A stretch of DNA of 64,000 bases. It comes from Phycomyces blakesleeanus NRRL 1555(-). Taxonomy: Eukaryota > Mucoromycota > Mucoromycetes > Mucorales > Phycomycetaceae. The notes below the pieces were generated by a model. That model saw only the letters and a list, made by a program, of their open reading frames with translations, did not search any database and was not told the DNA's origin. The position numbers and the translations under genes are program-made. The stretch's first letter is position 1; the number at the start of each line of letters is the position of its first letter. The DNA lies in contig NW_017265139.1 of assembly GCF_001638985.1 (NCBI RefSeq), positions 682,001-746,000 of the forward strand, read 5' to 3'. Of the stretch, positions 26,040 through 56,249 are shown piece after piece.

Positions 26040-26128
26040 CACAAAAACAGTAACAAAAAATAGCACAAGCTCATGACAAAAAAAAGAAATAAAAAAAGAG
26101 ATGAAAAAAAAAAGAGATGAAAAAATAA

Positions 26129-26159
<31 letters not shown>

Positions 26160-26330: not shown

Positions 26331-26404
26331 ATTCTCCAAATAGTATAACTAGCATTTTTATTCATAAATTTTTATAATATACATAACCATTTTTTCGCAA
26401 ATAA

Positions 26405-26645: not shown

Positions 26646-27039
26646 CCTTGGCTCTATACAAAAAAAAACTTTCTTTTTTTTTATTTTTTTTTATTTTTTT
26701 TTTTTATTTTTTTTTTGTTGGGCAAACCCATGAGGAGAAATCCCGCCCCTTCCTTCAAGACAGAGGACAGGACACCATAAAGGCTCTGGTAGCACTGTAA
26801 ATTGGCTAATAAATAAATGTTCTTAAAAGTGTGAAGAAGCTTAATATGTAAACATTCATTATTCTTCAACACATTCTTTATCCAAATATATTAAGACAAC
26901 AGGACAAGACTATATTTTGGTAGAAACGTTTAAGTTATTAAATTTTTTTTTTTTGGTATATATACCCCAGTGTCTTAATAAAAGTTTCTCAGTTATCTTT
27001 CTTCCTCGATTTTAACACCCTTTTTATTTTCAAAAAAAA

Positions 27040-28572
27040 ATGCCTACTTCCAACAACTCCCTCGAATTTGTTATGGACAAGCACTGTGAAATGGTCAGTC
27101 ACAGCGGTTCTGCAGACCAAACCCAGTTTTCTGGAATTGCTTTCAACCCCTTGTGCGATTTCAACCAAGAGATTGTTGACGAAATGCATGGAGAAGTTGT
27201 ACTCCGATCTGTGACAGATGTCTTTGTCAACCATGCCGATATGGAATGGACTCGTACCTCGGCCGGAAACCCAGCAGTCACAAACCTCCTCAGTCTCAAA
27301 AGTTTCCTGCCAACCGAAGTCAACAAGGCCACAACCAAGACAATTGTTGCACAGAAGCTGAAGACGAATCTGTTGGAGAAGGTCGATCCTGATTCTGTTC
27401 CCACTGCAGAAAGCATAGGTCGAGGTTCATACCGAAAGTACAACCAAAACCAGGTGAACAAGCTCTTCTCCTTGGTTTTCTCAGAAAACCAGACTGCTGC
27501 TGCCGCTGCCAGGGAAACGGGGATCAATGTCCGGACTGCCCAGAACTATGTCAGGCTGGCCAGAGAGAAGATCCAGGCTGATTTTGATGCTGCCACAGTG
27601 GAGACTGATGAGTCCAATGGGCTGGAGACGATGGAGGTTGAGGAGGTTTCTGCGCCTAAAGAACGAAAACATGGCAACCAAAAGTTGTTCCAGGCGCACT
27701 CTGCTTTTTTTTTGAAGTTTTTCGAAAATAAACCAGATGCTACCTTGGAACAAGCAAGGATAGCTGTCATGGAAGAGTTCTCTGGGCTGCAGATTACCAA
27801 ATCAGCAATCCAGAAGCACTTGGTGAAGAAGTGTGCCCTGACGATGAAGAAGTTGGAGAAGCTGCCTGAGAAGAGAGACAACGTCAACACAATTGAGATG
27901 AGATGAGACCGCATTTTGGAGTGGCAACAACTTGCAGATTTCAACTATCTGTCGAACTGTGTGTTCATCAATGAAGCAGGCTTCAACATGCACATCAAGA
28001 GAACTTTTGGCTGTTCCGTCAGTGGCACCCCGGCTAAGACAACTGTCCCGATGCAGAGAGGTGTGTCCATCACCATCCTTGGTGCAATGTGCGAGAGAGG
28101 GATTGTCAACCTCTCGTTGAAGAAACCCACTGCAGTTGCAACCAAGAAGAAGAGAAAGTTGGACATCTACACCAACATTGAGGTGAACGGCCGAATTGGC
28201 ACCAGAACCCAGCACTACCTCGACTTTCTTAGTCATACAATGGACGTTCTGGACAGCCAGGGTATGCAAGGACGTTATCTCATCATGGATAATGCTCCTA
28301 TCCATAAGGCTGATGAGGTGAAAGACTTTATTTCTTCCCGTGGGTACAAGTGTGCATATCTTCCTGTGTATTCACCTTTCCTGAATCCAATTGAGAAAAT
28401 GTGGTCCAAGATCAAGTTTGGTGTCCGCAGAGAAGAGATTACAGAGTCAGACAGGCTCATCTTAAGGATTACAGAATCAGCTAAGACTGTCACCCTTTCG
28501 GACTGTTTGGGTTGGATTAACCATGCCATTTCATTCTTTCCTCGCTGTTTGAACAGAGAGCAAAAGCTTTAA
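27040..28572 (+). pseudogene. DD34E transposase, copy 1 (stop and lost catalytic Asp)
   Basis: Start ATG 27040 after an A-rich leader; 511 codons in one frame. The N-terminal ~130 residues are of unknown type. An HTH follows (QVNKLFSLVFSENQTAA, ARETGINVRTAQNYVRLA), then a second helical segment (EFSGLQITKSAIQKHLVKKC). The DDE core has MDNAPIHKADE (Asp ~417) and LNPIEKMWSKIKFG (Glu ~452), 34 residues apart. The first catalytic Asp, present in copies 2 and 3 (FIDEA), is Asn here (FINEA, codon 27970-27972). A TGA at 27904-27906 replaces CGA of the other copies. Both changes are transitions at CpG. This copy is catalytically dead. Confidence 0.93.
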
Positions 28573-30234
28573 GTATGTCTTTTATGTCTATTTAAGCTCT
28601 TTACACTCTATGTCTTTTTTTATTTTATTTTTATTTTTTACTACTTTATGTCCCTCTTTTTCTTATTTTTTTTTACCACTTTATGTCCCTCTTTTTTTTA
28701 TTTGTTTTACTGCTTTATGCTTTTCTTTTTTTATTACATTGTATTTCATTATATCTTACTTCTTATTATGTGTTCTATTTCTCTATCAACTAATTATGCC
28801 TAATAAAAATATCTATGTTTTATGCCAAAAAAATACAACGTTTACAAAAAAAAAGTATGACGTTTACAAAAAAAAGTACGACGTTTACAAAAAAAAATAC
28901 TATGGTTATATAAAAAAAATTGTAAGGCGTAAGGATAAAAAAATTGAGTGCCATGTACCCTTCCGCCAATAGTAAAAGGGGGGGAGCAAATTCAGATAGC
29001 AATGGGAGCAAATTCAGTTGGCAATGGACGCAAATTCAATTTCTATGGAAGCCAATCAGATGTCAATGGGTTCTAATTAGATGGAAACAGATGCTAATTA
29101 GATGGAAATGGGCGCCAATTGAATGGATAAAACCAGTATTTTATAGGTGATAAATAGAACACTTACACGTCTTTTCATACATAGTATTAAATACCAAGAT
29201 AAGAATTATATTCCCTCAAAGCTCTTCACTGACTATCATTTTCCTTTATTTTCTTTTGTCATTTTCACTCTTTCTCATTAGCTCTATTCATTTCTAAATT
29301 GAGTATGATGATAAGTTTTTTTATTGATTCAATCTATCTTTTTTCCATTACTAATCTGTAGAAATACTTCTTTAAATATATTTTTTAGTCACACTCTTTA
29401 TTTTAGTCAGCTAGCTATACAATTTGTAAGTTACATAATGCTTTTTTTTGATATCTGTACTGATAAGAAAAGATATTTTAGAATCTTGACTATCTCAAAG
29501 TATTTATTGATATTACTTTGATTGAGTATATCACACTATAAGCAATATTATATATCATATTCTATGCATTCATTAATTATTGTTGATGCTGCTCTTAAAC
29601 AGTGCTTTTCTTCTTTCAATTTAGTATTCAATGTCTGGTTCAGGTATTAAATAGAGCAATGATATTAAGCAAGATATATCCAATGGGTTCAAAATGCGTA
29701 AAAGGAGAGGATACTGTGAAATCAAAATATTTATCTAGAAATCATTTTTTTTCTATCAAATAAACCAAAAATTAAAAAATTATATAATAAAATTAATTGT
29801 ATAAAATACTAAATAAAAAGCCGGATTATAATTGTGAACCTGTTTCTCCACCTGTTTCCCCAAATTTCGAGATATATAGCTAATAGAAATTGAGTAAAGT
29901 TTGGAGAACCTTTGATATAATTAGCTCACGCAGATTGGTTTTATTTAAACTGACCACCCCATTTAAGAAATGATGACCAAACTTTAATGAGAATATATGC
30001 TAGATCTCTTTTTTATTTAAAAGCTGAATAAAAAATACCAGCTAATTTAGGCGGCATGTAAATCTAAGTATTTCACCATGATATAAGTCTTCTTTCCAAA
30101 GATATAACTTATGTTTCCATTCGGGGGGAACATCTCTTTAAACTGAGTGAAATTATCTTTTTCCCTCAATTCAACATATATTTCAATCCAGTACAATTAT
30201 ACAATTTTTGCAGTAATAACTATACATATAATAT

Positions 30235-32053: not shown

Positions 32054-35000
32054 TTATATATCACTTAAGACATCAAGTGTCAATTTTAGACCACATTTAA
32101 GGCTAGGCCAAATGATATAATGGCACCAAGTCAACCAACTCTACAATGTCACTGGTATGATTCCCTATAGTCTTTGACTTTACTACAGATTTAATATGCA
32201 ATCCATTTTTCAAATGCACACTATATATGGTTATGAGAGCTAGTGGCCATCTCTTCTAGTTGTGTACATGTTAGAAGAATATAATCACCTTTCCAAAGAA
32301 ATGCTTATATCCTGGACAGTAAGAGAGATCTTCTGCAGTTCATGTCTACTTGTAGCTGCACATAAACATGACATGCCTCTTTTGTAGAACTTTGGTTGAA
32401 TGCAGCATCAATAACACAGCTATTAAAATAGGCTTTACGGCTTGTCTTTATAGAAGGCTCAAGCATACTACATTCTTCTCTCTTTAAATCATAAAACGTT
32501 TTAAGAAGCAATGAAAGATGAGATCTATCTTCAAAGCTATAAAAAATTATTAAATTCTTCAAAGGCTCCCAGAACTCAATGTCATGCTCAGCATTGGCAG
32601 GATCACCTTCTTCTGTAACAGGCCACCCATTGGTATATGCACTGTTGTAAATGAGTATTGACTACTGCTGTAATTGAGAATAAGTCTAAAGGAAATAATA
32701 TAAGGCCTCAGCTATTCCAGTCAAAGGTGTCTACCGATTACTTTATTATTTAACACACAAGTTTAGCATGCATGATAGTGATTATATTTCATATGATGAT
32801 ATCACCATAATATAGGATACATCAGTGGATTATTATAAGCATAATTATAACTCATAAACACATTTACTTTCGATGTTAATACTTCATTGGGACTACACAC
32901 ATTTATATAATTAATCATACATTAATTATTCCAAGATCACGTTGCTCTGATTAAGGCTCAGATAGGATCGATTACCTGACCCCAGTCATATAATTTTCCC
33001 AATTCAAAACAATATAAATAGCAGTAGTAGTTCAGTGTAGGAACCTGGTCAAACTTTGATATAAAATCCTTTCTCAATAAACAAAACCTACACAAGTTCT
33101 CACGAATCTTCGTCTCTAATCTCAAATCTTCAATTCTTCCTCTTAAAAACTTCTTCAACTTCAACCAACACAACATGCACTGTAAGCTAAAAGATTGGCT
33201 GGTAAAGTTTTTGTGCTTGCAACTGTTGTCAGTTCTGCTACACTCTGAAATTGCGCCAGTCTGATCATGATGTTTTCAGTATTGACACTGGCTTAGGAGT
33301 TACTATTGATGGATCTGGAGTACTTACCAATGACTCTTTTCATGGATCATATGCTATATGCTCTTGGTAGACCATATAGGTCAACCATCTTGAGATAATG
33401 CTGAATAATGTGCTGGTTAATTGTGAACACGCCAATGTCAATATCTGCTGTAGAAAGAAGACTCTCTAGAAATAAGTTCCATTTTACAAGATTACTAAGA
33501 AAAAAGAAAAAAGTAAATTACTATGAAAAATGAAATAAAATATGGCATTAAACATACTTTCTTATTGAGGTTTGATCTACTGCTGATAACTAACAGCTCA
33601 TGAGTAAATTGCATGTTTGAATCAGGCCAAGTAATGACTTTTGGGCAACCAAGTTCTGGACACACTCTGCAACTAACGTGGGGACAACAAAGAGTAAAAA
33701 GTTTGCCCAATTCACAGCTTTAAAAAAACTGGCATTCTTTGTCATGTCTCTTGAGGCACCATGCAACAATTTAGAGATCGCAAATTTTATAGCTACAATT
33801 ACAGTACCAATCTCCCTTTGAGTGGCAAGAGAAAGACATATATGATGCTTGAGTTCATACTCTTCACGTACAAGTTCCCATACCTGTTTACCAATTCCAT
33901 GGCACAGACCATGCATCTCATCTAATGCAAAAAAAAACAGACCAGATAATGTTTCCATTGAGACTAATGGTGGCTGACCATTGAGCCCCATTCTGTCTTC
34001 ACTGCTTGTCAGATTGTAATTCCTGAAACTCACTAGTGAGCGCGTCTGGGTTTCAGACAACATGTGGAAGTACTGACCATGTTTAGAAGTTTGGCCCACT
34101 ATGTGAGAAATACGACAGCCATTCTTACTTATGTGGCCAACATGGCATGCCTACTTTGCCAAAGCCGGAATATTGCCAGTGACCATGAGGACATACACCT
34201 TTGCCCTAATCATCATTGCTGGTGTCTTTACTTCCATGCCTTCTGTCTGGAGCAAACAGAGATCTCTCAGCATTGGCTCAAGGAAGGACCAGATGTCACT
34301 GGGACCAGTGCAGCTAGGAAACATTGCTATTTGGATCATCCTGTTTTTCTCATAATGGATCATCGGATTCAAGTTCAAGACAGTTGCATGAACAATGGTT
34401 ACTGATCCAGGTACATTGTATGGGTTGAACCCATCCGTGGACAACAAAATCGCAATATCATTTTCACCAGAAAACAGATGCTTCATGAATTGGTATGCAT
34501 GACCATCGAAAACATCTGCTTTCTGCCCATCTTTGCTGGGCTGGTAGTTGTGATGATAGAGTACTTCAGTCCTGATCTTGTTGTCAGTCAAACACAAAGC
34601 AAGCTGTCTGGCCAAAGGAAGCTGTACGATCGATCTCACAGGAACCCTGGTGTCACTTTCGCTAGTTTGGTCATTTTTGTATCTTGCTTCCCTGCATTTT
34701 ACGCATGTGGTATCATTCTCATTGTTGAATTGTGTACAACCCCTTATGCAAATATCGTATCTGTCAGCTTTGATATGCGAGAAGTACTCAAGAAGCTTGT
34801 TTCCAAGGTGTGGGCTGCATGCTTGGTATATAATATTGATAGAACAATCAAAGATCTGGTTGAAGTGTTCTACAATCTTTTTGTGGGCTCGACAAGAAAT
34901 TCTGAACTCTTAGATCAACTGCATGAACGCGAGATTCTTTTTATCATTGTTGCTGGGAACAGGAAGAGGCTGGCTAAAATCAAAGACTAGCGAGGGTGTG

Positions 35001-39335: not shown

Positions 39336-40023
39336 TACTGGTTTTATCCATTCAATTGGCGCCCATTTCCATCTAATTAGCATCCGTTTCCATCTAATTA
39401 GAACCCATTGACATCTGATTGGCTTCCATAGAAATTGAATTTGCGTCCATTGCCAACTGAATTTGCTCCCATTGCCATCTGAATTTGCTCCCCCCCTTTT
39501 ACTATTGGCGGAAGGGTACATGGCACTCAATTTTTTTATCCTTACGCCTTACAATTTTTTTTATATAACCGTAGTATTTTTTTTTGTAAATGTTGTATTT
39601 TTTTTATATAACCGTAGTATTTTTTTTTGTAAACATCGTACTTTTTTTTTGTAAACGTCGTATTTTTTTTTGTAAACGTCGAATTTTTTTTATATAACCG
39701 TAGTATTTTTTTTTGTAAACGTCGTATTTTTTTGGCATAAAACATGGATATTTTTATTAGGCATAATTAGTTGATAGAGAAATAGAACACATAATAAGAA
39801 GTAAGATATAATGAAATACAAAGTAATAAAAAAAGAAAAGCATAAAGCAGTAAAATAAATAAAAAAAGAGGGACATAAAGTGGTAAAAAAAAAATAAGAA
39901 AAAGAGGGATATAAAGTAGTAAAAAAAAAATAAGAAAAAAAGGGACATAAAGTAGTAAAAAATAAAAATAAAATAAAAAAAGACATAGAGTGTAAAGAGC
40001 TTAAATAGACATAAAAGACATAC

Positions 40024-41556
40024 TTAAAGCTTTCGCTCTCTGTTCAAACAGCGAGGAAAGAATGAAATGGCATGGTTAATCCAACCCAAACAGTCCGAAA
40101 GGGTGACAGTCTTAGCTGATTCTGTAATCCTTAAGATGAGCCCATCTGACTCTGTAATCTCTTCTCTGCGGACACCAAACTTGATCTTGGACCACATTTT
40201 CTCAATTGGATTCAGGAAAGGTGAATACACAGGAAGATATGCACACTTGTACCCACGGGAAGAAATAAAGTTTTTCACCTCATCAGCCTTATGGATAGGA
40301 GCATTATCCATGATGAGATAACGTCCTTGCATACCCTGGCTGTCCAGAACGTCCATTGTATGACTAAGAAAGTCGAGGTAGTGCTGGGTTCTGGTGCCAA
40401 TTTGACCGTTCATCTCAACGTTGGTGTAGATGTCCAACTTTCTCTTCTTCTTGGTTGCGACTGCAGTGGGTTTCTTCAACGAGAGGCTGACGATCCCTCT
40501 CTCGCACATTGCACCAAGGATGGTGATGGACACACCTCTCTGCGTCGGGACAGTTGTCTTTGCTGGGGTGCCACTGACGGAACGGCCAAAAGTTCTCTTG
40601 ATGTGCATGTTGAAGTCTGCTTCATCGATGAACACACAGTTCGACAGATAGTTGAAATCCGCAAGTTGTTGCCACTCCAAAATGCGGTCTCGTCTCATCT
40701 CAATTGTGTTGGTGTCGTCTCTCTTCTCAGGCAGCTTCTCCAACTTCTTTATCGTCAGGGCACACTTCTTCACCAAGTGCTTCTGGATTGCTGATTTGGT
40801 AATCTGCAGCCCAGAGAACTCTTCCAAGACAGCTATCCTTGCTTGTTCCAAGGTAGCATATGGTTTATTTTCGAAAAACTTCAAAAAAAAAGCAGAGTGC
40901 ACCTGGAACAACTTTTGGTTGCCATATTTTCATTCTTTAGGCGCAGAAACCTCCTCAACCTCCATCGTCTCCAGCCCATTGGACTCATCAGTCTCCACTG
41001 TGGCAGCATCAAAATCGGCCTGGATCTTCTCTCTGGCCAGCCTGACATAGTTCTGGGCAGTCCGGACATTGATCCCCGTTTCCCTGGCAGCGGCAGCAGC
41101 AGTCTGGTTTTCCGAGAAAACCAAGGAGAAGAGCTTGTTCACCTGGTTTTGGTTGTACTTTCGGTACGAACCTCGACCTATGCTTTCTGCAGTGGGAACA
41201 GAATCAGGATCGACCTTCTCCGGCAGATTCGTCTTCGGCTTCTGTGCAACAATTGTCTTGGTTGTGGCCTTGTTGACTTCGGTTGGCAGGAAACTTTTGA
41301 GACTGAGGAGGTTTGTGACTGCTGGGTTTCTGGCCGAGGTACGGGTCCATTCCATATCGGCATGGTTGACAAAGACATCTGTCACAGATCGGAGTACAAC
41401 TTCTCCATGCATTTTGTCGACAATCTCTTGGTTGAAATCGCACAAGGGGTCGAAAGCAATTCCAGAAAACTGGGTTTGGTCTGCAGAACCGCTGTGACTG
41501 ACCATTTCACAGTGCTTGTCCATAACAAATTCGAGGGAGTTGTTGGAAGTAGACAT
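40024..41556 (-). pseudogene. DD34E transposase, copy 2 (one nonsense codon)
   Basis: ATG 41556 (MSTSNNSLEF). Same layout as the other copies; catalytic residues present: FIDEADFNMH, MDNAPIHKADE, LNPIEKMWS. The only break is TGA at 40930-40932 (APKE then stop), where copy 1 has CGA. Copy 3 shares this stop, so the defect predates their spread. The upstream part (208 aa, HTH) and the downstream part (catalytic) could only be separate proteins if a new start were used; no suitable in-frame ATG is close after the stop. Confidence 0.93.
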
Positions 41557-42277
41557 TTTTTTTTTGAAAATAAAAAGGGTGTTAAAATCGAGGAAGAAAG
41601 ATAACTGAGAAACTTTTATTAAGACACTGGGGTATATATACCAAAAAAAAATATATTTTAATAACTTAAACGTTTCTACCAAGGTATAGTCTTGTCCTGT
41701 TGTCTTAATATATTTGGATAAAGAACGTGTTGAAGAATAATGAATGTTTACATATTAAGCTTCTTCACACTTTTAAGAACATTTATTTTATTAGCCAATT
41801 TACAGTGCTACCAGAGCCTTTATGGTGTCCTGTCCTCTGTCTCGAAGGAAGGGGTGGGATTTCTCCTCATGGGTTTGCCCAACCAAAAAAAAAATAAAAA
41901 AAAAATAAAAAAAAAAGAAAGTTTTTTTTTGTATAGAGCCAAGGAAAAGCTCGAAATTCAGTTATTGAGATTTTCAGTTTTTCAGAAATTTCTGCGGTTA
42001 GATACCATTTTATTTTCAGTTATTAAGATTTTCAGTTTTTCAGTTATTGAGACTTTCATTTTTTCAGTTATTGAGACTTTCAGTTTTTCAGTTTTTCAGT
42101 TTTTCAGTTTTTCAGAAATTTCTTGCAGTAAGATATCATTTTATTTTCAGTTATTGAGACTTTCAGTTTTTCAGAAATTATTTGCGAAAAAATGGTTATG
42201 TATATTATAAAAATTTATGAATAAAAATGCTAGTTATACTATTTGGAGAATTATTTTTAAAATTGCTATTACATTTT

Positions 42278-42580
42278 TCTTTTTTTTATTTCTCTTTTTT
42301 TTTCTTTTTTTTATTTCTATTTTTTTTATTTCTTTTTTTTTATTTCTTTTTTTTTTTATTTCTATTTTTTTTATTTCTTTTTTTTTATTTCTTTTTTTTT
42401 TTATTTCTTTTTTTTTTATTTCTTTTTTTTTCTTTTTTTTTATTTCTTTTTTTTATTTTTTTTTATTTTTTTTTTTATTTTTTTTTTTTTTATTTTTTAT
42501 TTTTTTTTATTTTTTTTTTTTATTTTTTTTATTTTTTCATCTCTTTTTTTTTCATCTCTTTTTTTATTTCTTTTTTTTGT
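42278..42580. repeat. T-rich low-complexity tract (copy 2)
   Basis: Runs of TTTTTTATTTCTTTTT, longer than in copy 1. The Phe-rich frames here are not genes. Confidence 0.85.
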
Positions 42581-43774
42581 CATGAGCTTGTGCTATTTTT
42601 TGTTACTGTTTTTGTGTGTGTAATATTTGGGTTTTTTTTGGTATTTTGTATCATGAGGGTTTCCAAAATTGAGATCGGGTAGTATTGTGAGCAAAGCATA
42701 ATTCTTGGACCGCTTTCAGTTGTTTAACAGATTGTTGGACATTTACTTGTTTCGAGTGCAGATTACAAAGAGTTGTTGAGTTTGATATTAAGAAGATCAG
42801 GATTCTGACATTGTAAAATGGTTGGAGCAGGTGCTGAATAAATATAGCATTTTTGGATTCTTTTTTGTAATGGTATTAGATGCTTGTGTAGGACCAGGTT
42901 CATAAGAAATACAATTGCTGTGGTAGTCAATCAGATTACTGGATATTTGAGATAAAAATTGGCAAGTTTTTGTGTGGTCGGTAGAGTGAATTCTACTGTT
43001 GGATTTCGAAAAAGTATAGTCGGTGAAATGCACTTAAAAGCATTATGAATATGTGTAGACTGGTTCCTATCGTACAGGTAGATGTTTGATCTTGTAGTTT
43101 CTTTGTAGGTGGAGGGTTGAATCGTCACGTTTTCTTTTCAGATTTATAGCTTTTGTTCAAAATACTATAGATTATTTAGAGATTAATATCAATGACTCCG
43201 AGGTATAGGCTTTATTTACATACAGAAACATAATGTGATCTGGAAATAATAAAAAAATCCATGAGGTGTAGAGCTTTAGGCAGTGTTTTCATTGTCAGAG
43301 TAATATTTAGTTGTTGAAGTGAGCATGAGAATGAGATTTATTGCTGATTTAAGAAGAGAAATAAACAGTTTTGGTATATAAACACCAAATGGAAAGAGAG
43401 AGAATTAGGATATCTCTTTTAAAAAAGAATGTTTATAATAAATTTATGGCTGCGGGTAATATATTGTCCTATTTATTTTTTATCTCCTTGAGTTCAATTT
43501 GTACTACTTTATTTAGTGGACCTTGGAATATTATTTTTTGATATAAAAAGCTGAAAATATAATGACTAATACTATTTAACAACAACTCAATCTTCTTTAC
43601 ATCTATTCTTGCTGCTTCAACTTGTGTTCTGATTTTTATCTTGCATCTTAAGTAATTACTATTTAATTATAACTGCTATGTGCTAGATATAACTATATTT
43701 ATATAAAATATGTCACTTTAACATATCTTCCTATTTCTTTATTTTTTCACCTTTTATTATCAGAAAACCCTACA

Positions 43775-44158
43775 ATGTTACATGAAAAACTTGAAGAATA
43801 TAACAGTGCCTTTGAAAAAAGCATGGAAGAGCTTGAAGAGCCTGAAATGCCAGAAGATCCAAAAAGTTCTGCCCCATCAACAACAGACGAAACCCCCAAA
43901 AAAAGTAGAGGGCAATATCAAAAGCCTACGGATAAAGATATAAAAAATCTTCTTTATCTCTACTTCATAAGGGGATTAACTATCGAAAAAGCCAGCAAGA
44001 TAGTAAATATGAAACAAACAACTGCTGGTAGCTATATTTTGAAGTGGAGAAAGTCTCCAGTTGTTTTTTTCATTAAAAACAACAAGGAGGCTACAAGTGA
44101 CAAAAAAATGAATCTTTTATTTGAAACTTACTCTGCAATAAAGAAAGAATACAAATAA
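43775..44158 (+). CDS. HTH accessory protein of mariner-like element, copy 2 (intact)
   Basis: 127 aa from ATG 43775. Residues 1-40 are acidic (EKSMEELEEPEMPEDP), followed by a basic patch (PKKSRGQYQKP). A helix-turn-helix-like segment lies at ~55-95 (IKNLLYLYFIRGLTIEKASK, IVNMKQTTAGSYILKWRKSP), resembling the homeodomain-like DNA-binding part of transposases. It lies at the opposite end of the element from the transposase and is divergent from it. Copy 3 encodes the same protein (51468-51851). I infer binding to the subterminal repeats or repression of the element; a role is not proven. No catalytic domain. Confidence 0.85.
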   Translation: MLHEKLEEYNSAFEKSMEELEEPEMPEDPKSSAPSTTDETPKKSRGQYQKPTDKDIKNLLYLYFIRGLTIEKASKIVNMKQTTAGSYILKWRKSPVVFFIKNNKEATSDKKMNLLFETYSAIKKEYK

Positions 44159-44359
44159 TATCATTGCATTTTCAATTTTAACATAATTATTATAATGAGA
44201 TACTTGCTTTATTATCTTATAACTGCAGTAAGGTATTTAACTTCAACAAAGTAATCTGGAGAAAAGTTTGCATATTCTGTTAGTTCTCTCTATAGATATT
44301 TTCTATGACGTATCTTTGTAGAAAGATCTACATATATTGAAGTGCTATTACATTAGGCG

Positions 44360-44600
44360 TTTGGCACTTATATAAAAAAATATGGCAGTTATATAAAAAA
44401 AATATGACGTTTACAAAAAAAAATACTACGGTTATATAAAAAAAATACAACGTTTACAAAAAAAAATACTACGGTTGTATAAAAAAAATTCGACGTTTAC
44501 AAAAAAAAATACGACGTTTACAAAAAAAAAGTACGACGTTTACAAAAAAAAGTACGACGTTTACAAAAAAAAAGACTACGGTTATATAAAAAAAATTGTA
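44360..44600. repeat. Subterminal iterated motifs (copy 2, right)
   Basis: About ten units alternating ACGACGTTTACAAAAAAAAA and ACTACGGTTATATAAAAAAA. This is the highest count among the six ends. Confidence 0.85.
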
Positions 44601-44814
44601 AGGCGCAAGGATAAAAAAATTGAGTGCCATGTACCCTTCCGCCAATAGTAAAAGGGGGGGAGCAAATTCAGATGGCAATGGGAGCAAATTCAGTTGGCAA
44701 TGGACGCAAATTCAATTTCTATGGAAGCCAATCAGATGTCAATGGGTTCTAATTAGATGGAAACGGATGCTAATTAGATGGAAATGGGCGCCAATTGAAT
44801 GGATAAAACCAGTA

Positions 44815-45220
44815 CTAATTTAATATATATATGTAAGCTATTGACCACCAATCTACTATATATATATATAAGTAGACAACAGCTGGTCTGCTATATATAT
44901 AAGTAGATGATAGCCGGTCTGCTATATATATATAAGTGGATGATAGCCTGTCTGCTATATATATAAGTAGATGATAGCCAGTATGATATATATATAAGCC
45001 AATAATTGGTGATCTGGTATATATAAGCCAATGATTGCCAATCTGGTATATATATAAGTAGATGATAGCTGTTCTGCTATATATATATAAGTGGATGATA
45101 GCCAGTCTGCTATATATATAAGTAGATGATAGCCAGTCTGATATATATATAAGCCAATAATTGGTGATCTGGTATATATATAAGTCAATGATTGCCAATC
45201 TGGTATATATATAAGCAAAT
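44815..45220. repeat. ~31-bp satellite array, segment 2
   Basis: Same unit as 38820-39335, with longer-range repetition of a block of several units (45000-45060 resembles 45140-45200). Interrupted at 45221 by solo LTR 2. Confidence 0.88.
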
Positions 45221-45851
45221 TGTTGTGAATGAGTATTGATTACTGCTGAATCTGAGAGTAAGACTGAAGGATAAAATAATATCCTCAGCTATTCCAGTCA
45301 AACGGATCTCCCTTTATGATATTATCTAATACACAGATCATCATACACATAATTGATTATTTTTTATTATCACCATGACATGGGATATACAAATACATAT
45401 ACATTATATATATGGCATCATTATATTTCATCTACATATTTCTTTTATTATACAAATACTTAATTGAGAGACTACAACTACAACTATCTAATATTATGAA
45501 ACATTACCCGAGTATCTGGGTCGGAATACTAAAATATTACCAATAGCATAAATGCTCTTCTTTACCAAAACTCTTGGACTGATCTGACTGGAGAAGTATC
45601 ATATCAATTGGTCTTTCCGGATCTTTCCAGAAGAACAATACTCCTGGAATATGACTCATCGTGATAAAGATTACTTAAGCACACACTGAATTACAAATTA
45701 GAAAAACATATAAATATCAGTAGATAGTTCCGTGTAGAAAGACAATCGAATTTTATCATTCTTTACTTTTCTTTTGAAATAAACAACCTACACAAGTTCT
45801 CACGAATTCTTTCGTCTATATTATATTTTGCTTTATTTTCTCCCCACAACA
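45221..45851 (+). repeat. Solo LTR 2 with CAAAT target duplication
   Basis: 631 bp, begins TGTTGTGAATGAG and ends CACAACA. Flanked by CAAAT (45216-45220, 45852-45856). Same family as 32643-33175. It contains an ACACAAGTTCTCACGAAT block shared with the other members near the 3' side. Confidence 0.93.
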
Positions 45852-45856
45852 CAAAT

Positions 45857-46940
45857 AATTACCAATCTAGTATATATATAAGTCAATGATCACTAATCTG
45901 TTATATATATAAGCGAATGATTGCTGATCTGGTATATATATAAGTCAATGATCGCCAATCTGGTATATATATAAGCCAATAATTGCCAATCTAGTATATA
46001 TAAGCCAATAATTGTCAATCTGGTATATATATAAGCTGATAACAGTCAATCTCATATATATAAGCCAATAACAATCAATCTCATATATATATAAGCCGAT
46101 AACAGCCAATCTAGTATATATATCAGCTAATAATTGCTAATCTGGTATATATATAAGCTGATGACAGCCAATCTAGTATATATATCAGCTAATGATTGCC
46201 AATCTCATATATATATATAAGTCAATGATCATCAATCTAGTATATATATAAGCTGATGACAGCCAATCTGATATATATATCAGCTAATGATTGCCAGTCT
46301 CATATATATATAAGTCAATGATCATCAATCTAGTATATATATAAGCTGATGACAGCCGATCTGATATATATATAAGTTAATGATTGCCAATCTGATATAT
46401 ATATAAGCTATTGACAGCCGATCTGCTATATATATAAAGTATTGACAGCTGATCTGCTATATATATAAGCTGATGACAGTCTATCTCAAATATATATAAG
46501 CTGATAATAGCTAATCTGATATATATATAAACTATTGATAGCCAATCTCATACATATATAAGTGGATGACAGCTGATCTTGTATATATATAAGCTGATGA
46601 CTGCCAATCTGGTATATATATAAACTAATTATTAACAATCAGATCCATATGTAAATCAATGATTGTGTATCTGATATGTATATAAACTGATAATAACTGA
46701 TCTAGTCTACATATAAAACAATAGTGGCTAATCTGCTACTTATATAAGCTAATAATAGTCAATTTTCAATTTATATAGATAAATGACAGTCAATTTATTA
46801 CTTATATAAGCTGATGACTGCATATTTGCTGCTTATATAGATAGATTACAGCTGATGCGCTACTTATATAAGTGGATAACAGACAATCTTCTATTTATAT
46901 AAGGTGACAATATCTAATTTACTACTTAGATAGACAGACA
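45857..46940. repeat. ~31-bp satellite array, segment 3
   Basis: About 33 units such as AAGCTGATGACAGCCAATCT plus a TATATATA run. Units become degenerate after 46620. The array ends directly at a CACTA terminus (46952). Confidence 0.88.
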
Positions 46941-46951
46941 ATAATCACTAT

Positions 46952-49900
46952 CACTATGGGAAAAAGGTGGTCTTTTTTGAATTTGTGACTTCATTTTTGG
47001 CCTATAATAATCAAAAAATCACTAAAAATCCAAGTTGAAACAAGAAAATCTTTGTTCTTTGAAATAGTTGATAAAAAGCAAATGAATCACTTAAAATTAA
47101 ATCTCAGAAGGGACAAATGTCCATTCTAATTAAATATCTTACATTTTTAGTAAATATATATTGGAAATGAGAAATATTGGATGTGAGAAATAAAAAAAAG
47201 AAAATATCTAAACTTTCTGCTGCTTGGATAAAATTTGTTAGGACAATTTGAAAAAAAAGAAGAATTTATTACAAAAAGAAAAAGAAACAAATTATATATC
47301 ACTTAAGGCATCAAGTGTCAATTTTGGGCCATGTTTAAGGCTAGGCCAAATGATATAATGGCTACCATTGACATTTGATGGCACCAAGCCAACCAACTCT
47401 ACAATGTCACTGGCATGAATCACTATAGTCTTTGGCTTTACTACAGATGTAATATGCAATCCATTTTTCAAATGCACACTATATATGGTTATGAGAGCTA
47501 GTGGCCATCTCTTCGAGTTGTGTACATGTTGGAAGAATATAACCATCTTTCCGAAGAAATGCTTATATCCTGGATGGTAAGAGCAGGATCTTCTGGAGTT
47601 CATGTCCACTTGTAGCTGCACATGAACATAACATGCCTCTCTTGTAAAACTTTGGTTGAATGCAGCATCAATAACACAACCATTAAGATAGGCCTTGTGG
47701 CTTGTCTTTATGGAAGGCTCAAGCATACTACATTCTTCCCCCTTCAAATCATAAAACGTTTTAAGAAGCAATGAAAGATGAGATCTATTTTCAAAGCTAT
47801 CAAAAATTGTTAAATTCTTCAAAGGCCCCCAGAACTCAATCTCACACTCAGCATTGACAGGATCACCTCCTTCTGTAACAGGCCACCCATCAGTATATGC
47901 ACTATAAACTAGAAGGTTAGCTGGTGGAGTTTTTGTGTTTGCAACGGTTGTCAGTTCTGCTACATGCCGGGATTGCACCAGTCTGATCATGATGTTTCCA
48001 GCATTGACACTGACTTGGGAGTTACTCTTGATGGACCTGGAGTACTCACCAATGGCTCTTTCCACGGATCGTGTGCTATATGCTCTTGGCGGGCCATATA
48101 GATCAATCATCTGAGGATAATGCTGAATAATGTACTGGTTAATTGTGCACACGCCAATGTCAATATCTGCTGTAGAAAGAAGACTCTCTAGGAATAAGTT
48201 CCATTCTACAAGATTACTAAGAAAAAAGATAAATGTAAATTACTATGAAAAATGAAATAAAATATGGCATTAAACATACCTTCTTATCGAGGTTTGATCC
48301 TCTGCTGATAACTCCCAGCTCATGAGTAAATTGCATATTTGAACCAGGCCAAGTAATGCCTTTTGGGCAACTGAGTCTTGAACACGCTCTGCAACCAACG
48401 TGGGGACAACAAAGAGTAAAATGTCTGCCCAATCCACAGCTCTAAAGAAACCGGCATTCTTTGTCATGTCTCTCCAGGCACCATGCAACAATGTAGGGAT
48501 TGTGGATTTTGCAGCTACCATTGCAGCCCCAATCTCCCTTTGAGTGGCAAGAGAAAGACATAGAGGATGCTTGATTCCATACTTTCCGCGTACAAGTCCC
48601 CATACCTGTTTACTGATTCCATGGCACAGACCATGCATCTCGTCTAATGCAAAAAAAAATGGGGCAGAGAATGTTTCCATTGAGGCTAATGATGACTGAC
48701 CATTGAGCCCCTTTCTGTCTTCACTGCTTGCCAGATTGTAGTTTCTGAAACTCTCCAGTGAGCACGTCTGGGTTCCAGGCAACATGCGGAAGTACTGGCC
48801 ATGTTTAGGAGTTTGGCCCACTACGCGACAAATATGACAGCCATTCTTACTCATGTGGCCAACATGGCATGCCAGCTTTGCCAGAGCCAGAATATTGCTA
48901 GTGGTCATGAGGACATACACCTTTGCCCTAATCATCATTGCTGGTGTCTTTACTTCCATGCCTTCTGTCTGGAGCAAACAGAGATCTCTCAGGATTGGCT
49001 CAAGAAAAGACCAGATGTCACTGGGACCAGTGCAACCAGGAAGCATTGCTATTTGGATCATCCTGTTTTTCTCATAATGGATCATCAGATTCAAGTTCAA
49101 GACAGTTGCATGAACAATGGTTACTGATCCAGGTACATTGTATGGGTTGAACCCATCCATGGACAACGAAATCGCAATATTGTTTTCACCAGAAAACAGA
49201 TGCTTCATGGATTGGTATACATGACCATTGAAAACATCTGCTTTCTGCCCGTCTTAGTTGGATTGGTGGTTATGACAATAGAGCATTTCAGTTCTGGTCT
49301 TGTTATCAGCCAAACACAAAGCAAGCTGTCTGGCCAAAGGAAGCTGTACGATCAATCTCACAGGAACCCTGGTGTCACTTTCACTAGTTTGGCCATTTTT
49401 GTATCTTGCTTCACTGCATGTTACGCATGCAATATCCTTCTTGTTGTTGAACTGCATACAATCTCTGATGCAAATGTCGTATCCGTCTGCTTTGATATCC
49501 AAGAAGTGCTCAAGAAGCTTGTTTCCAAGGTGTGGACTGCATGCTTGGTACATAATATGGATAGAACAAACAAGGATTTGGTTGAAGTGTTCTACAATCT
49601 TTTTGTGGGCTCGACAAGAAATTCCGAACTCTTAGATCAACTGCATTAACACAAGATTTTTTTTATCATTGTTTCTGGGAACAGGAAAAGGCTGGCTAAA
49701 ATCAAAAAACTAGCAAGTGTGTGATGTCTTCAATTTTGTTCATGACATTCTCGCATTTGTCTCCAACAACATACTATAGTAAGATAAATAATAATAAGTA
49801 TGATTATCATGATATGTGTATTGATGTATCTCATCATGGACTCATCATCTTCAGTACTGTCAATGATATTCATATCCTCATTACTGCTTATGTTAATGTT

Positions 49901-50345
49901 TTTTCTGTTGGTTTATCAAAGTATACAGCTAATTAACATACTGTTTATCATTTTGTGATTTGTTTTTTATAAGATTACTCAAAAGCCAAGCTAGAAATCA
50001 TTGCTGATATAGACTGACTTTGCTCAGGAAGAGAGACAGTTTAGGAAACTTTGACATTGGCAAATAATTCTGTTCTATTTGTTATATATTATTCAGAACA
50101 GCGTTTATATATTTGACTGTTATTAAAAGTTGACTTGCAAGTATGGCATTGATAATGAGAGGCTTTTATAATTTTGGATATTTTTGAGGTAGATAAAAAA
50201 ACTTTGCTATATAAGTAAGAATAGAATTAATTACTTTCTGAATGTATATCTTTATACTTAAGTATATCAAGACAATGATGTTGTATGTATTCTGAATATA
50301 TGCTTGAGATCTTAAATAAGTATCTTTATGTCATTAGTGAAGTTA
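46952..50345. mobile_element. CACTA-type element B, truncated
   Basis: The left end CACTATGGGAAAAAGGTGG is at 46952. Homology to element A runs through the left arm, the tnp2 gene and its upstream region to about 50345 (35630 in A), then stops. The accessory ORF and right terminus are missing. Confidence 0.78.
47292..50190 (-). pseudogene. tnp2-type transposase, CACTA copy B
   Basis: The longest continuous parts are 49208-48270 (312 aa, LSMDGFNPYNVPGSVTIVH to LLMSWELSAEDQTSIRR) and, after a 63-nt intron at 48217-48279 (GTATGT...CTTAG, phase 2), 48216-47292 (SNLVEWNLFLESLL to LTLDALSDI). Motifs: HVGHMSKNGCHICRVVGQTP (Cys/His cluster), FFALDEMHGLCHGISKQ, GYKHFFGKMVIFFQHVH. Upstream a TAA (49254-49256) interrupts HNHQSN/DGQKADVF where copy A is open. 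The first codon of the finger exon is ATA instead of ATG near 50190, and stops lie in the 5' part. The C-terminal half is intact. Confidence 0.8.
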
Positions 50346-50791
50346 CTGAATTTTTCATATTTGATTGCAGTTTATAAAAATAAGTTTACAGTTTTTTAAA
50401 AAAAGTTGCGGTTTATAAAAAAAAGTTTGCTTTTTTTTTGAATCAGTTTGCTGCCACACAGAAAACTAATTTGCATTCTATCCTACTAAATTTGCATATT
50501 TCTTTTTTAATTTGCATTTTTAATTTGCACTTTTAATTTTTACTTTGGCCTCAATTTGCAAAACTTGTTCACACAAAATGTAGATATAAATTGTGATAAA
50601 AAACCTAAATTGCTTATTACTTTTTATTTTCTACATTTCTGTGTTTTGCCTGCTGATATACACTTTTTCAGATATTATTTGTACAAAAATAAAAATTGAT
50701 TTGTTGAAAAAATAGAATTTACCAAATGCATCAAAAAAGATGAATTAAGAAAAGAAATGACAGAAAATTGTACCAAGTTTTATATTTATTC

Positions 50792-50957
50792 CACTACGGG
50801 AAAAAAGGGGCGTTTTTTGTAATTGTGACTTCGTTTTTGGCCTATCATAATTAAAAAATCATCAAAAAATCAAAATGAAACAAAAAACTCTCTATTTTTT
50901 GAAATAGCTGACAAAAAGTAAATTGACTACCTAGAATAAAATCTCAGAAGAGATAAA
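50792..50957 (+). mobile_element. CACTA terminal fragment
   Basis: CACTACGGGAAAAAAGGGG followed by the arm sequence GTGACTTCGTTTTTGGCC seen in elements A and B. It is cut off at mariner copy 3 (TA at 50958-50959) and does not resume beyond 56244. Confidence 0.8.
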
Positions 50958-51467
50958 TACTGGTTTTATCCATTCAATTGGTGCCCATTTCCATCTAATT
51001 AGCATCTGTTTTCATCTAATTAGAACCCATTGATATCTGATTGGCTTCCATAGAAATTGAATTTGTATCCATTGCCAACTGAATTTGCTCCCCCCCTTTT
51101 ACTATTGGCGGAAGGATACATGGCACTCAAATTTTTTATCCTTACGCCTTACAATTTTTTTTATATAACCGTAGTATTTTTTTTATATAACCATAATACT
51201 TTTTTTTTTGTAAACGCCATATTTTTTTTTATATAACTGCCATATTTCTTTTATATAAGTGCCAAACGCCTAATGTAATAGCACTTCAATATATGTAGAT
51301 CTTTCTACAAAGATATGTCATAGAAAATATCTATAGAGAGAACTAACAGAATATGCAAACTTTTCTCCAGATTACTTTGTTGAAGTTAAATACCTTACTG
51401 CAGTTATAAGATAATAAAGCAAGTATCTCATTATAATAATTATGTTAAAATTGAAAATGCAATGATA

Positions 51468-51851
51468 TTATTTGTATTCTTTCTTTATTGCAGAGTAAGT
51501 TTCAAATAAAAGATTCATTTTTTTGTCACTTGTAGCCTCCTTGTTGTTTTTAATGAAAAAAACAACTGGAGACTTTCTCCACTTCAAAATATAGCTACCA
51601 GCAGTTGTTTGTTTCATATTTACTATCTTGCTGGCTTTTTCGATAGTTAATCCCCTTATGAAGTAGAGATAAAGAAGATTTTTTATATCTTTATCCGTAG
51701 GCTTTTGATATTGCCCTCTACTTTTTTTGGGGGTTTCGTCTGTTGTTGATGGGGCAGAACTTTTTGGATCTTCTGGCATTTCAGGCTCTTCAAGCTCTTC
51801 CATGCTTTTTTCAAAGGCACTGTTATATTCTTCAAGTTTTTCATGTAACAT
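51468..51851 (-). CDS. HTH accessory protein of mariner-like element, copy 3 (intact)
   Basis: 127 aa, the same protein as at 43775-44158: acidic N-terminus, basic PKKSRGQYQKP patch, HTH-like LTIEKASKIVNMKQTTAG. It is divergent from the transposase at 54069. The ORF is preserved in both young copies while the transposase carries a stop. Confidence 0.85.
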   Translation of the reverse strand: MLHEKLEEYNSAFEKSMEELEEPEMPEDPKSSAPSTTDETPKKSRGQYQKPTDKDIKNLLYLYFIRGLTIEKASKIVNMKQTTAGSYILKWRKSPVVFFIKNNKEATSDKKMNLLFETYSAIKKEYK

Positions 51852-53044
51852 TGTAGGGTTTTCTGATAATAAAAGGTGAAAAAATAAAGAAATAGGAAGA
51901 TATGTTAAAGTGACATATTTTATATAAATATAGTTATATCTAGCACATAGCAGTTATAATTAAATAGTAATTACTTAAGATGCAAGATAAAAATCAGAAC
52001 ACAAGTTGAAGCAGCAAGAATAGATGTAAAGAAGATTGAGTTGTTGTTAAATAGTATTAGTCATTATATTTTCAGCTTTTTATATCAAAAAATAATATTC
52101 CAAGGTCCACTAAATAAAGTAGTACAAATTGAACTCAAGGAGATAAAAAATAAATAGGACAATATATTACCCGCAGCCATAAATTTATTATAAACATTCT
52201 TTTTTAAAAGAGATATCCTAATTCTCTCTCTTTCCATTTGGTGTTTATATACCAAAACTGTTTATTTCTCTTCTTAAATCAGCAATAAATCTCATTCTCA
52301 TGCTCACTTCAACAACTAAATATTACTCTGACAATGAAAACACTGCCTAAAGCTCTACACCTCATGGATTTTTTTATTATTTCCAGATCACATTATGTTT
52401 CTGTATGTAAATAAAGCCTATACCTCGGAGTCATTGATATTAATCTCTAAATAATCTATAGTATTTTGAACAAAAGCTATAAATCTGAAAAGAAAACGTG
52501 ACGATTCAACCCTCCACCTACAAAGAAACTACAAGATCAAACATCTACCTGTACGATAGGAACCAGTCTACACATATTCATAATGCTTTTAAGTGCATTT
52601 CACCGACTATACTTTTTCGAAATCCAACAGTAGAATTCACTCTACCGACCACACAAAAACTTGCCAATTTTTATCTCAAATATCCAGTAATCTGATTGAC
52701 TACCACAGCAATTGTATTTCTTATGAACCTGGTCCTACACAAGCATCTAATACCATTACAAAAAAGAATCCAAAAATGCTATATTTATTCAGCACCTGCT
52801 CCAACCATTTTACAATGTCAGAATCCTGATCTTCTTAATATCAAACTCAACAACTCTTTGTAATCTGCACTCGAAACAAGTAAATGTCCAACAATCTGTT
52901 AAACAACTGAAAGCGGTCCAAGAATTATGCTTTGCTCACAATACTACCCGATCTCAATTTTGGAAACCCTCATGATACAAAATACCAAAAAAAACCCAAA
53001 TATTACACACACAAAAACAGTAACAAAAAATAGCACAAGCTCAT

Positions 53045-53352
53045 GACAAAAAAAAGAAATAAAAAAAGAGATGAAAAAAAAAGAGATGAAAAAATAAAAA
53101 AAATAAAAAAAAAAAATAAAAAAAAATAAAAAATAAAAAAAAAAAAAATAAAAAAAAAAATAAAAAAAAATAAAAAAAAGAAATAAAAAAAAAGAAAAAA
53201 AAAGAAATAAAAAAAAAAGAAATAAAAAAAAAAAGAAATAAAAAAAAAGAAATAAAAAAAATAGAAATAAAAAAAAAAAGAAATAAAAAAAAAGAAATAA
53301 AAAAAATAGAAATAAAAAAAAGAAAAAAAAAGAGAAATAAAAAAAAGAAAAA
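53045..53352. repeat. A-rich low-complexity tract (copy 3)
   Basis: Same as in copy 2, inverted. No coding value. Confidence 0.85.
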
Positions 53353-54068
53353 TGTAATAGCAATTTTAAAAATAATTCTCCAAATAGTATAACTAGCATT
53401 TTTATTCATAAATTTTTATAATATACATAACCATTTTTTCGCAAATAATTTCTGAAAAACTGAAAGTCTCAATAACTGAAAATAAAATGATATCTTACTG
53501 CAAGAAATTTCTGAAAAACTGAAAAACTGAAAAACTGAAAAACTGAAAGTCTCAATAACTGAAAAAATGAAAGTCTCAATAACTGAAAAACTGAAAATCT
53601 TAATAACTGAAAATAAAATGGTATCTAACCGCAGAAATTTCTGAAAAACTGAAAATCTCAATAACTGAATTTCGAGCTTTTCCTTGGCTCTATACAAAAA
53701 AAAACTTTCTTTTTTTTTTATTTTTTTTTTATTTTTTTTTTGGTTGGGCAAACCCATGAGGAGAAATCCCACCCCTTCCTTCGAGACAGAGGACAGGACA
53801 CCATAAAGGCTCTGGTAGCACTGTAAATTGGCTAATAAAATAAATGTTCTTAAAAGTGTGAAGAAGCTTAATATGTAAACATTCATTATTCTTCAACACG
53901 TTCTTTATCCAAATATATTAAGACAACAGGACAAGACTATACCTTGGTAGAAACGTTTAAGTTATTAAAATATATTTTTTTTTGGTATATATACCCCAGT
54001 GTCTTAATAAAAGTTTCTCAGTTATCTTTCTTCCTCGATTTTAACACCCTTTTTATTTTCAAAAAAAA

Positions 54069-55601
54069 ATGTCTACTTCCAACAACTCCCTCGAATTTGT
54101 TATGGACAAGCACTGTGAAATGGTCAGTCACAGCGGTTCTGCAGACCAAACCCAGTTTTCTGGAATTGCTTTCGACCCCTTGTGCGATTTCAACCAAGAG
54201 ATTGTCGACAAAATGCATGGAGAAGTTGTACTCCGATCTGTGACAGATGTCTTTGTCAACCATGCCGATATGGAATGGACCCGTACCTCGGCCAGAAACC
54301 CAGCAGTCACAAACCTCCTCAGTCTCAAAAGTTTCCTGCCAACCGAAGTCAACAAGGCCACAACCAAGACAATTGTTGCACAGAAGCCGAAGACGAATCT
54401 GCCGGAGAAGGTCGATCCTGATTCTGTTCCCACTGCAGAAAGCATAGGTCGAGGTTCGTACCGAAAGTACAACCAAAACCAGGTGAACAAGCTCTTCTCC
54501 TTGGTTTTCTCGGAAAACCAGACTGCTGCTGCCACTGCCAGGGAAACGGGGATCAATGTCCGGACTGCCCAGAACTATGTCAGGCTGGCCAGAGAGAAGA
54601 TCCAGGCCGATTTTGATGCTGCCACAGTGGAGACTGATGAGTCCAATGGGCTGGAGACGATGGAGGTTGAGGAGGTTTCTGCGCCTAAAGAATGAAAATA
54701 TGGCAACCAAAAGTTGTTCCAGGTGCACTCTGCTTTTTTTTTGAAGTTTTTCGAAAATAAACCATATGCTACCTTGGAACAAGCAAGGATAGCTGTCTTG
54801 GAAGAGTTCTCTGGGCTGCAGATTACCAAATCAGCAATCCAGAAGCACTTGGTGAAGAAGTGTGCCCTGACGATAAAGAAGTTGGAGAAGCTGCCTGAGA
54901 AGAGAGACGACACCAACACAATTGAGATGAGACGAGACCGCATTTTGGAGTGGCAACAACTTGCGGATTTCAACTATCTGTCGAACTGTGTGTTCATCGA
55001 TGAAGCAGACTTCAACATGCACATCAAGAGAACTTTTGGCCGTTCCGTCAGTGGCACCCCAGCAAAGACAACTGTCCCGACGCAGAGAGGTGTGTCCATC
55101 ACCATCCTTGGTGCAATGTGCGAGAGAGGGATCGTCAGCCTCTCGTTGAAGAAACCCACTGCAGTCGCAACCAAGAAGAAGAGAAAGTTGGACATCTACA
55201 CCAACGTTGAGATGAACGGTCAAATTGGCACCAGAACCCAGCACTACCTCGACTTTCTTAGTCATACAATGGACGTTCTGGACAGCCAGGGTATGCAAGG
55301 ACGTTATCTCATCATGGATAATGCTCCTATCCATAAGGCTGATGAGGTGAAAAACTTTATTTCTTCCCGTGGGTACAAGTGTGCATATCTTCCTGTGTAT
55401 TCACCTTTCCTGAATCCAATTGAGAAAATGTGGTCCAAGATCAAGTTTGGTGTCCGCAGAGAAGAGATTACAGAGTCAGATGGGCTCATCTTAAGGATTA
55501 CAGAATCAGCTAAGACTGTCACCCTTTCGGACTGTTTGGGTTGGATTAACCATGCCATTTCATTCTTTCCTCGCTGTTTGAACAGAGAGCGAAAGCTTTA
55601 A
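54069..55601 (+). pseudogene. DD34E transposase, copy 3 (one nonsense codon)
   Basis: 510 amino-acid codons from ATG 54069 (MSTSNNSLEF). Asp ~311 in FIDEADFN (54999-55001), Asp ~417 in MDNAPIHK (55317-55319) and Glu ~452 in NPIEKMWS (55422-55424). TGA at 54693-54695 is the sole break, identical to copy 2. The pieces before and after the stop are 208 and ~302 codons. Confidence 0.93.
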
Positions 55602-56249
55602 GTATGTCTTTTATGTCTATTTAAGCTCTTTACACTCTATGTCTTTTTTTATTTTATTTTTATTTTTTACTACTTTATGTCCCTTTTTTTCTTATTTTTT
55701 TTTTACTACTTTATATCCCTCTTTTTCTTATTTTTTTTTACCACTTTATGTCCCTCTTTTTTTATTTATTTTACTGCTTTATGCTTTTCTTTTTTTATTA
55801 CTTTGTATTTCATTATATCTTACTTCTTATTATGTGTTCTATTTCTCTATCAACTAATTATGCCTAATAAAAATATCCATGTTTTATGCCAAAAAAATAC
55901 GACGTTTACAAAAAAAAATACTACGGTTATATAAAAAAAATTCGACGTTTACAAAAAAAAATACGACGTTTACAAAAAAAAAGTACGACGTTTACAAAAA
56001 AAATACTACAGTTATATACAAAAAATTGTAAGGCGTAAGAATAAAAAATTTGAGTGCCATGTACCCTTCCGCCAATAGTAAAAGGGAGGGGGCAAATTCA
56101 GATGGCAATAGGAGCAAATTCAGTTGGTAATGAATGCAAATTCAATTTCTATGGAAGCCAATCAGATGTCAATGGGTTCTAATTAGATGGAAACAGATGC
56201 TAATTAGATGGAAATGGGCGCCAATTAAATAGATAAAACCAGTATTGAA

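Follow-up and report, generated by a model that had tools for sequence, protein, structure and literature searches.

Transposons of the Tc1/mariner superfamily are the standard example of elements that make do with one protein, and common genetic tools have been derived from them. What, then, is a second small protein doing inside one of them? The question is raised by a stretch of 64,000 nucleotides from the genome of Phycomyces blakesleeanus (G000:C6:682001-746000; the window), in which three copies of an element, A, B and C, have a transposase frame of 510 codons at one end and, divergent from it at the opposite end, the frame of a 127-amino-acid helix-turn-helix (HTH) protein, here called the partner. 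We have followed both genes through the 53.5-Mb genome, where this family (family 1) has about 40 copies. The two-gene family, and the conservation of the partner in a diverged sister family, are real and well anchored. The function of the partner is, for now, a good hypothesis. We give somewhat better than even chances to the reading that this is a two-gene Tc1/mariner family whose 127-amino-acid partner would be a DNA-binding protein, acting at arrays of 21-bp units at the element ends.

The boundaries of the elements are sharp. Copy A (23869-29136, plus strand, 5268 bp) is bordered by TA at 23867-23868 and 29137-29138. Copy B (39338-44812, minus strand, 5475 bp) lies in the orientation opposite to A and C and interrupts, at a TA, a tandem array of 31-bp repeats; copy C (50960-56242, plus strand, 5283 bp) is also TA-flanked. 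In all three copies both ends start CTGGTTTTATC, between TA dinucleotides. Joining the flanks of B with a single TA gives a sequence that matches the surrounding 31-bp array at 88% over 82 nucleotides without a gap. The empty site is therefore visible, showing insertion with TA duplication. The ends of A form terminal inverted repeats of about 270 bp that are 99% complementary (23869-24137 and 28868-29136, inverted-repeat pair I10), and those of B are 97% complementary (39338-39605 and 44545-44812, pair I11). The elements of the window thus display the TA duplication (A, B and C) and the terminal inverted repeats (A and B) of the Tc1/mariner superfamily. The single open reading frame (ORF) and the length of 1.3-2.5 kb, which are typical of Tc1/mariner elements and not defining, are replaced here by two ORFs and 5.3-5.5 kb. 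An earlier reading of the sequence alone (the sequence-only reading) had described three TA-duplicated, two-frame elements of 5.3-5.5 kb, and this is confirmed by the three measured lengths, the inverted ends and the divergent frames. The range that it gave, 39338-56242, comprises two inverted copies, B and C, together with about 6 kb between them. Inner stretches of 2824 and 1693 nucleotides are 100% alike in B and C.

The transposase frame has its catalytic positions at D311, D417 and E452, with 34 residues separating D417 and E452. The open copy L026 matches DDE_3 (PF13358) in Pfam with an E value of 2e-23, and Sleeping Beauty (E 7.9e-6) is the sole sequence match of the transposase query in the PDB at E 0.01. 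The N terminus of the family-1 transposase gives only sub-cutoff matches in Pfam (Sigma70_r4_2); in the relative L039, described below, HTH_32 and HTH_29 are found below the cut-off. We have here a mobile Tc1/mariner family of DD34E type, with a TA target and two divergent genes. The expectation of a 510-codon DD34E transposase at one end is correct as to the frame and its catalytic residues, although a premature stop interrupts that frame in each of the three window copies. That of A (27040-28572, plus strand) has a stop at codon 289 and asparagine at position 311, the first catalytic position, and those of B (40024-41556, minus strand) and C (54069-55601, plus strand) both have a stop at codon 209. 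Since this stop is common to B and C, at least one of them was probably mobilized by a transposase from elsewhere, local duplication being the alternative. We aligned transposases from 22 of at least 45 places; a premature stop is absent in nine of the 22, window copies included. Five family-1 copies (L027, L028, L034, L036 and L037) have the transposase frame broken at one place, near codon 228. The common break suggests that a frameshifted lineage probably multiplied, with transposase supplied from elsewhere.

Does the partner belong to the element? In the window, B (43775-44158, plus strand) and C (51468-51851, minus strand) have open 127-residue frames that do not differ, and the frame of A (24498-24881, minus strand) is frameshifted with premature stops. 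The idea of an intact frame that is the same from copy to copy thus applies to B and C, and not to A. In the genome, HTH frames occupy 39 places, fragments among them (48 rows, nine of which are second rows of one place). Frames from 30 of these places were aligned, and 21 of the 30, a sample that includes the window copies, have no premature stop; L026, among the 21, is without an ATG. The terminal pattern of the element has 80 matches in the genome, compared with none for a reversed control; these numbers exceed what chance would give. An inward-facing terminus is found within 1.3 kb of the 3′ end of the HTH frame at 33 of the 39 places, a divergent transposase within 12 kb at 36, and both together at 31, with the proviso that one transposase may count for two HTH places where insertions are nested. 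In all, 38 of the 39 places have a terminus, a divergent transposase or both, leaving C4:2888438 (family 1) with neither in this tally. Seen from the other gene, a divergent HTH place is present for 37 of the 45 transposase places entered. There are at least 45 such places in the genome, 150 of 425 candidates having been scored; the count takes in no second rows, no distant families and not the partial place at C17:972580. We conclude that the partner belongs to the element, as the sequence-only reading had proposed. It had also envisaged homologues lying mainly outside such elements as the result that would overturn it; this was not the outcome, the cases being one lone homologue, on C13, and possibly C4:2888438.

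The arrangement is not confined to family 1. Among five loci examined, the transposase relatives at about half identity form two groups. In family 2 (L042, L043 and L044) the transposase is 45-48% identical to that of family 1, and at all three loci it stands divergent from a 147-codon HTH homologue at the opposite end. The family-2 ends that are seen (the left of L044 and the right of L043) start CTGGATTTTT after TA. The family-2 partner is open in L043 and has stops or a frameshift in L042 and L044, and a further open one is present on C15. Between A and L042 the DNA aligns over the transposase and over A/T tracts of low complexity, with no alignment in the HTH gene. A copy on C7 with about 75% DNA identity to family 2 has kept the divergent layout, with a partner containing two stops and an N-terminal remnant of the transposase. 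The two-gene divergent layout therefore recurs in a diverged sister family, and because the layout is the same there, transposase and partner probably constitute a working two-protein system. The small Tc1 relatives L039 and L041, which lie on contigs C14 and C17, have a transposase 47% identical to that of family 1. L039 is about 1.7 kb long with 84-bp terminal inverted repeats, unlike the 5.3-5.5 kb of family 1, and a search for the partner in L039 and L041 found it in neither.

What kind of protein is the partner? Profile alignment with hhalign matched its residues 42-94 with residues 125-177 of the transposase, as an ungapped stretch of 53 columns (E 2.5e-4, probability 43%). A plain BLASTP comparison of the partner with the whole transposase did not show the relation (E 5.7 among the matches listed). 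In Pfam the partner has sub-cutoff matches only (HTH_SB, E 0.054) and no catalytic domain. Structure models of the partners of both families have HTH helices of 13, 7 and 12-14 residues followed by a C-terminal helix, the helix plan being the same in both, with a mean predicted local distance difference test (pLDDT) score of 60 overall and about 80 in the HTH. Fold comparison returned generic HTH folds only, and no specific match. The core of the partner is thus predicted to be an HTH of three helices, and its sequence is related to that of the transposase's first HTH. In a FastTree tree of the 53 columns (six partners and three transposases, a short alignment without a determined root) the transposases group together with a support of 0.992. 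Because they stand together as a single clade, apart from every partner, the partner has probably not been re-made from the transposase of each family. It could be an old derivative of the N terminus of a Tc1 transposase, or the two may share a common ancestor. Queries with the partner and its homologues against the protein database returned P. blakesleeanus proteins only (17, 22 and 1 listed), the best of the records naming strain NRRL 1555(-), in a search that requires shared five-residue words, so that absence elsewhere carries little weight.

We then ask on what DNA such a protein might act. Six units of 21 bp are located at each end of A (23890-24016 and 28989-29115) by both periodicity and a matrix scan. 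The matrix scan places six units at the left (39359-39485) and six at the right (44665-44791) of B, with five at the left (50981-51085) and six at the right (56095-56221) of C, the matrix having been built from the same 21-bp units that it then scored. At the four family-1 ends tested, the self-match at a lag of 21 is 0.46-0.52, compared with shuffle 95% levels of 0.37-0.39. Inside A, B and C no units rise above the shuffle level (the best interior score of 9.1 bits is within the shuffle range), and in the partner-less L039 a 21-bp period exceeds that level at neither end. With the motif present at the ends and absent between the two genes, action at the ends is likelier than repression of promoters.

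Harbinger ORF1 and CACTA TnpA, to which the sequence-only reading likened the partner in a putative accessory system, are familiar cases of a DNA-binding protein that accompanies the transposase, and CACTA TnpA binds subterminal repeat arrays. These elements belong to other superfamilies, and their DNA-binding domains are not Tc1-type HTH domains. The position of the arrays and the relationship of the HTH suggest that the partner may bind the 21-bp arrays at both ends of the element. Once there it could, on the model of CACTA TnpA, take part in the assembly or the control of the transposase-DNA complex. Its role is likely to be that of an end-binding partner of the transposase, as either a helper or a competitor. 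A more elaborate proposal, which we consider less likely than not, is that DNA recognition has been split between the transposase and a single-HTH protein derived from a Tc1 N terminus, with both reading the 21-bp arrays, and that the copy on C13 has been kept by the host.

The competitor deserves separate consideration. Under this explanation the partner would be an HTH-only derivative occupying the end sites of the transposase and damping transposition, comparable to the KP-type repressors of P elements. In its favour, the first HTH is the one part of the transposase that the partner resembles, no catalytic domain is found in the partner by Pfam, and the sites in the arrays are located at the ends; moreover, an open partner accompanies a broken transposase in some copies, B and C for example. 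However, a simple decoy should fall close to its parent HTH, and the partners are grouped apart from the transposase of their own family. We regard competitive repression as unlikely.

Several findings weigh against the reading that we favour. Eight of the 45 transposase places entered have no divergent HTH place, and in family 2 a 21-bp period rises above the shuffle level at only one of the two ends tested. L030 and L031 (C17) have an identical frameshifted C terminus of the partner beside transposases without a premature stop, which suggests that an intact partner is unnecessary in cis. The rest concern selection. Using the mutation spectrum of the flanks, changes shared between HTH copies number 19 nonsynonymous (N) to 12 synonymous (S), a ratio to neutral of 0.51 (P 0.057), and singletons number 36 N to 12 S, a ratio of 0.98. 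Exclusion of the frameshifted copies gives 0.65 (P 0.24) for shared changes and 0.67 (P 0.15) for singletons. Tree-based counts for the HTH give 0.87 (P 0.375) on internal branches, and the family-2 pairs, with mutation bias not included, give 0.66-0.89, none being below P 0.07. Moreover, the change per site in the HTH frame is about that of the flanks, for shared changes (0.084 compared with 44/525) and for single ones (0.131 compared with 79/525).

Some other measurements are suggestive of constraint. On the terminal branches of the tree the HTH ratio is 0.49 (P 0.001), an N share below neutral that neither wrong frame shows. Values for the wrong frames of the HTH region run from 0.61 to 4.42, with P no lower than 0.086, and those for the flank control from 0.71 to 4.61, with P no lower than 0.20. 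These tree-based counts omit L027 for the HTH (29 of 30 copies), L038 for the transposase (21 of 22), and L013, L016 and L027 for the flank control (27 of 30). Chosen HTH pairs, with mutation bias not included, lie at 0.27-0.58 (P 0.0009 to 0.26). For the transposase, shared changes give 0.61 (P 0.0006) and singletons 1.31 over the 22 copies, one of them badly aligned; over the 13 in-frame copies the two values are 0.67 (P 0.12) and 0.80 (P 0.15). The tree-based ratios are 0.42 (P < 0.0005) on internal and 0.80 (P 0.016) on terminal branches, and five chosen pairs fall at 0.25-0.35, with C against L026 at 1.5, mutation bias again not being included. The chosen pairs (nine for the HTH and six for the transposase in family 1, and all six pairs of family 2) are not independent of each other. 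The methods differ as to the branches on which the signal is seen, and the evidence for selection on the HTH frame is therefore suggestive and not decisive. The ratio of nonsynonymous to synonymous rates (dN/dS) runs from about 0.3 to about 1 according to the method, so that the value near 1 by which the sequence-only reading was to be judged is neither reached throughout nor clearly excluded. In the flanks of the family-1 HTH frames, C-to-T or G-to-A changes make up 60 of 123 variants, which fits deamination in a genome rich in 5-methylcytosine (5mC).

These data also bear on the possibility that the partner ORF is a passenger, a functionless remnant frame spread by transposition. In favour of this are a rate of change near that of the flanks, dN/dS values around 1 by several of the estimates, and breaks in nine of the 30 frames examined. 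Against it, a homologue placed and oriented alike persists in a family that has lost DNA alignment in the HTH gene, and N changes on terminal branches are below neutral in the correct frame and not in the other two. The identical helices predicted for the two partners also argue against it. We consider a passenger distinctly unlikely.

Could the partner instead be a captured regulator of the host? A lone open homologue of 159 codons is present at G000:C13:92733-93209 (L046:434-910). There is an F-box gene nearby, the protein cluster is listed in three contigs, and in the 10 kb read there is no transposase match and there are no long inverted ends. Used as a query against the genome, it retrieves the partners of family 2 (E 7e-14 to 1e-11) ahead of those of family 1 (E 2e-4 or weaker); the C13 gene itself and partner frames account for the top 41 of the 48 matches listed. 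A gene standing alone and open in such surroundings might have been the source of the partner. Yet homologues outside P. blakesleeanus were not found in the protein database, a weak negative given the shared words that the search requires, and the C13 gene could equally be a domesticated partner. Capture of a host regulator is very unlikely in our view.

VANC of VANDAL elements and En/Spm TnpA counter host silencing. A partner counteracting silencing at the element ends in this manner is a highly improbable explanation. In its favour, the arrays are at the ends. It also agrees with a study in which 5mC in Phycomyces repeats is high and peaks at the starts and ends of transposons, and Tc/mariner expression correlates with insertion number (PMC11258239). 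The passages of that study leave unstated which Tc/mariner family was followed.

How does the two-gene family with its putative end-binding partner compare with published elements? Tc1/mariner elements with several genes have been described in ciliates and algal viruses (PMC3627910, PMC3464196, PMC4724952, PMC7325037), and hence the two-gene layout is not in itself unprecedented. The TBE elements of Oxytricha, like family 1, have a Tc1/mariner transposase with extra ORFs, of which a 22 kD ORF is reversed relative to the other two; purifying selection is reported for all three ORFs, and there are inner short tandem repeats (PMC4724952). They differ in having three ORFs, including a 57-kD zinc-finger/kinase, with an HTH partner unmentioned in the passages available (PMC4724952), and in their small terminal inverted repeats of about 80 bp (PMC7325037). 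Tec elements of Euplotes share the DD34E transposase, long terminal inverted repeats and an ORF in the complement, but contain a site-specific recombinase and have repeats of about 700 bp (PMC7325037). Sardine, Thon and Anchois of Paramecium are Tc1/mariner elements of up to 6.7 kb with two or three extra ORFs; Sardine and Thon have long terminal inverted repeats as in family 1, though palindromic, and unlike family 1 they encode a tyrosine recombinase, their other extra ORFs being hypothetical (PMC3464196). Fanzor1-bearing mariners are TA-flanked and also have accessory proteins beside the transposase, but these are Fanzor1, an endonuclease or a methyltransferase, with no small HTH protein in the passages concerned (PMC3627910). 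In eight frames of at least 100 amino acids from A, B and C (read without introns, and with transposase antisense frames excluded) we found no Pfam domain of a tyrosine recombinase or a zinc-finger/kinase.

The suggestion that extra proteins were new to this superfamily is accordingly overtaken by the published passages on TBE, Tec, Sardine, Anchois and the Fanzor1-bearing mariners. Nor is the word giant apt, 5.3 kb being unremarkable beside the 6.7-kb Sardine and plant elements of 2-6 kb. Our search of the open-licence literature found no fungal Tc1/mariner element described with an HTH partner, and no partner related to the HTH of its own transposase. Extra ORFs as such are already published for the superfamily; the novelty, as judged from these partial sources, lies in a small HTH partner that is conserved in a fungal family. 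If our reading is true, this fungal lineage, with arrays at the element ends and a conserved second protein that binds DNA, would illustrate how regulation or a helper is gained by a simple transposon. Phycomyces is a safe laboratory fungus in which this can be tested, and a Tc/Mariner element is reported to be upregulated in sporangiophores of strain NRRL 1555. Tc/mariner insertions are reported to be continuing in Phycomyces, with Tc/mariner elements making up 85% of new insertions; the passages leave unstated the family behind this figure (PMC11258239).

Other elements are present in the genome and in the window. Cargo was considered as an explanation for the 11-kb copies of family 1 and rejected, as the copy read, of 11.6 kb (G000:C3:936143-947704; L049, L050), instead holds a nested tnp2-type element (an 847-codon frame, PF02992) at the expected site of the HTH gene. 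Two tnp2-type (CACTA-like) copies lie in the window at 33590-34909 and 47292-49253, 86-92% alike in their matching stretches; the latter, between B and C, scores above the cut-off for PF02992 and the former just below it. Several other Tc1-like families have paired transposase frames that score identically and lie a few kb from each other, many of them listed in opposite orientation. The one pair examined (L051, C29) proved to be direct. The window further contains a PIF/Harbinger-type DDE_Tnp_4 frame with a convergent 349-codon frame without a Pfam match (1916-3849), and Helitron remains with a Pif1 2B domain and Helitron_like_N (13148-15886). Frames of a Ty3-like retrotransposon occupy 5787-10886 on the minus strand (gag, reverse transcriptase, RNase H and integrase), and a tRNA gene at 10816-10886 lies about 320 bp upstream of its gag frame.

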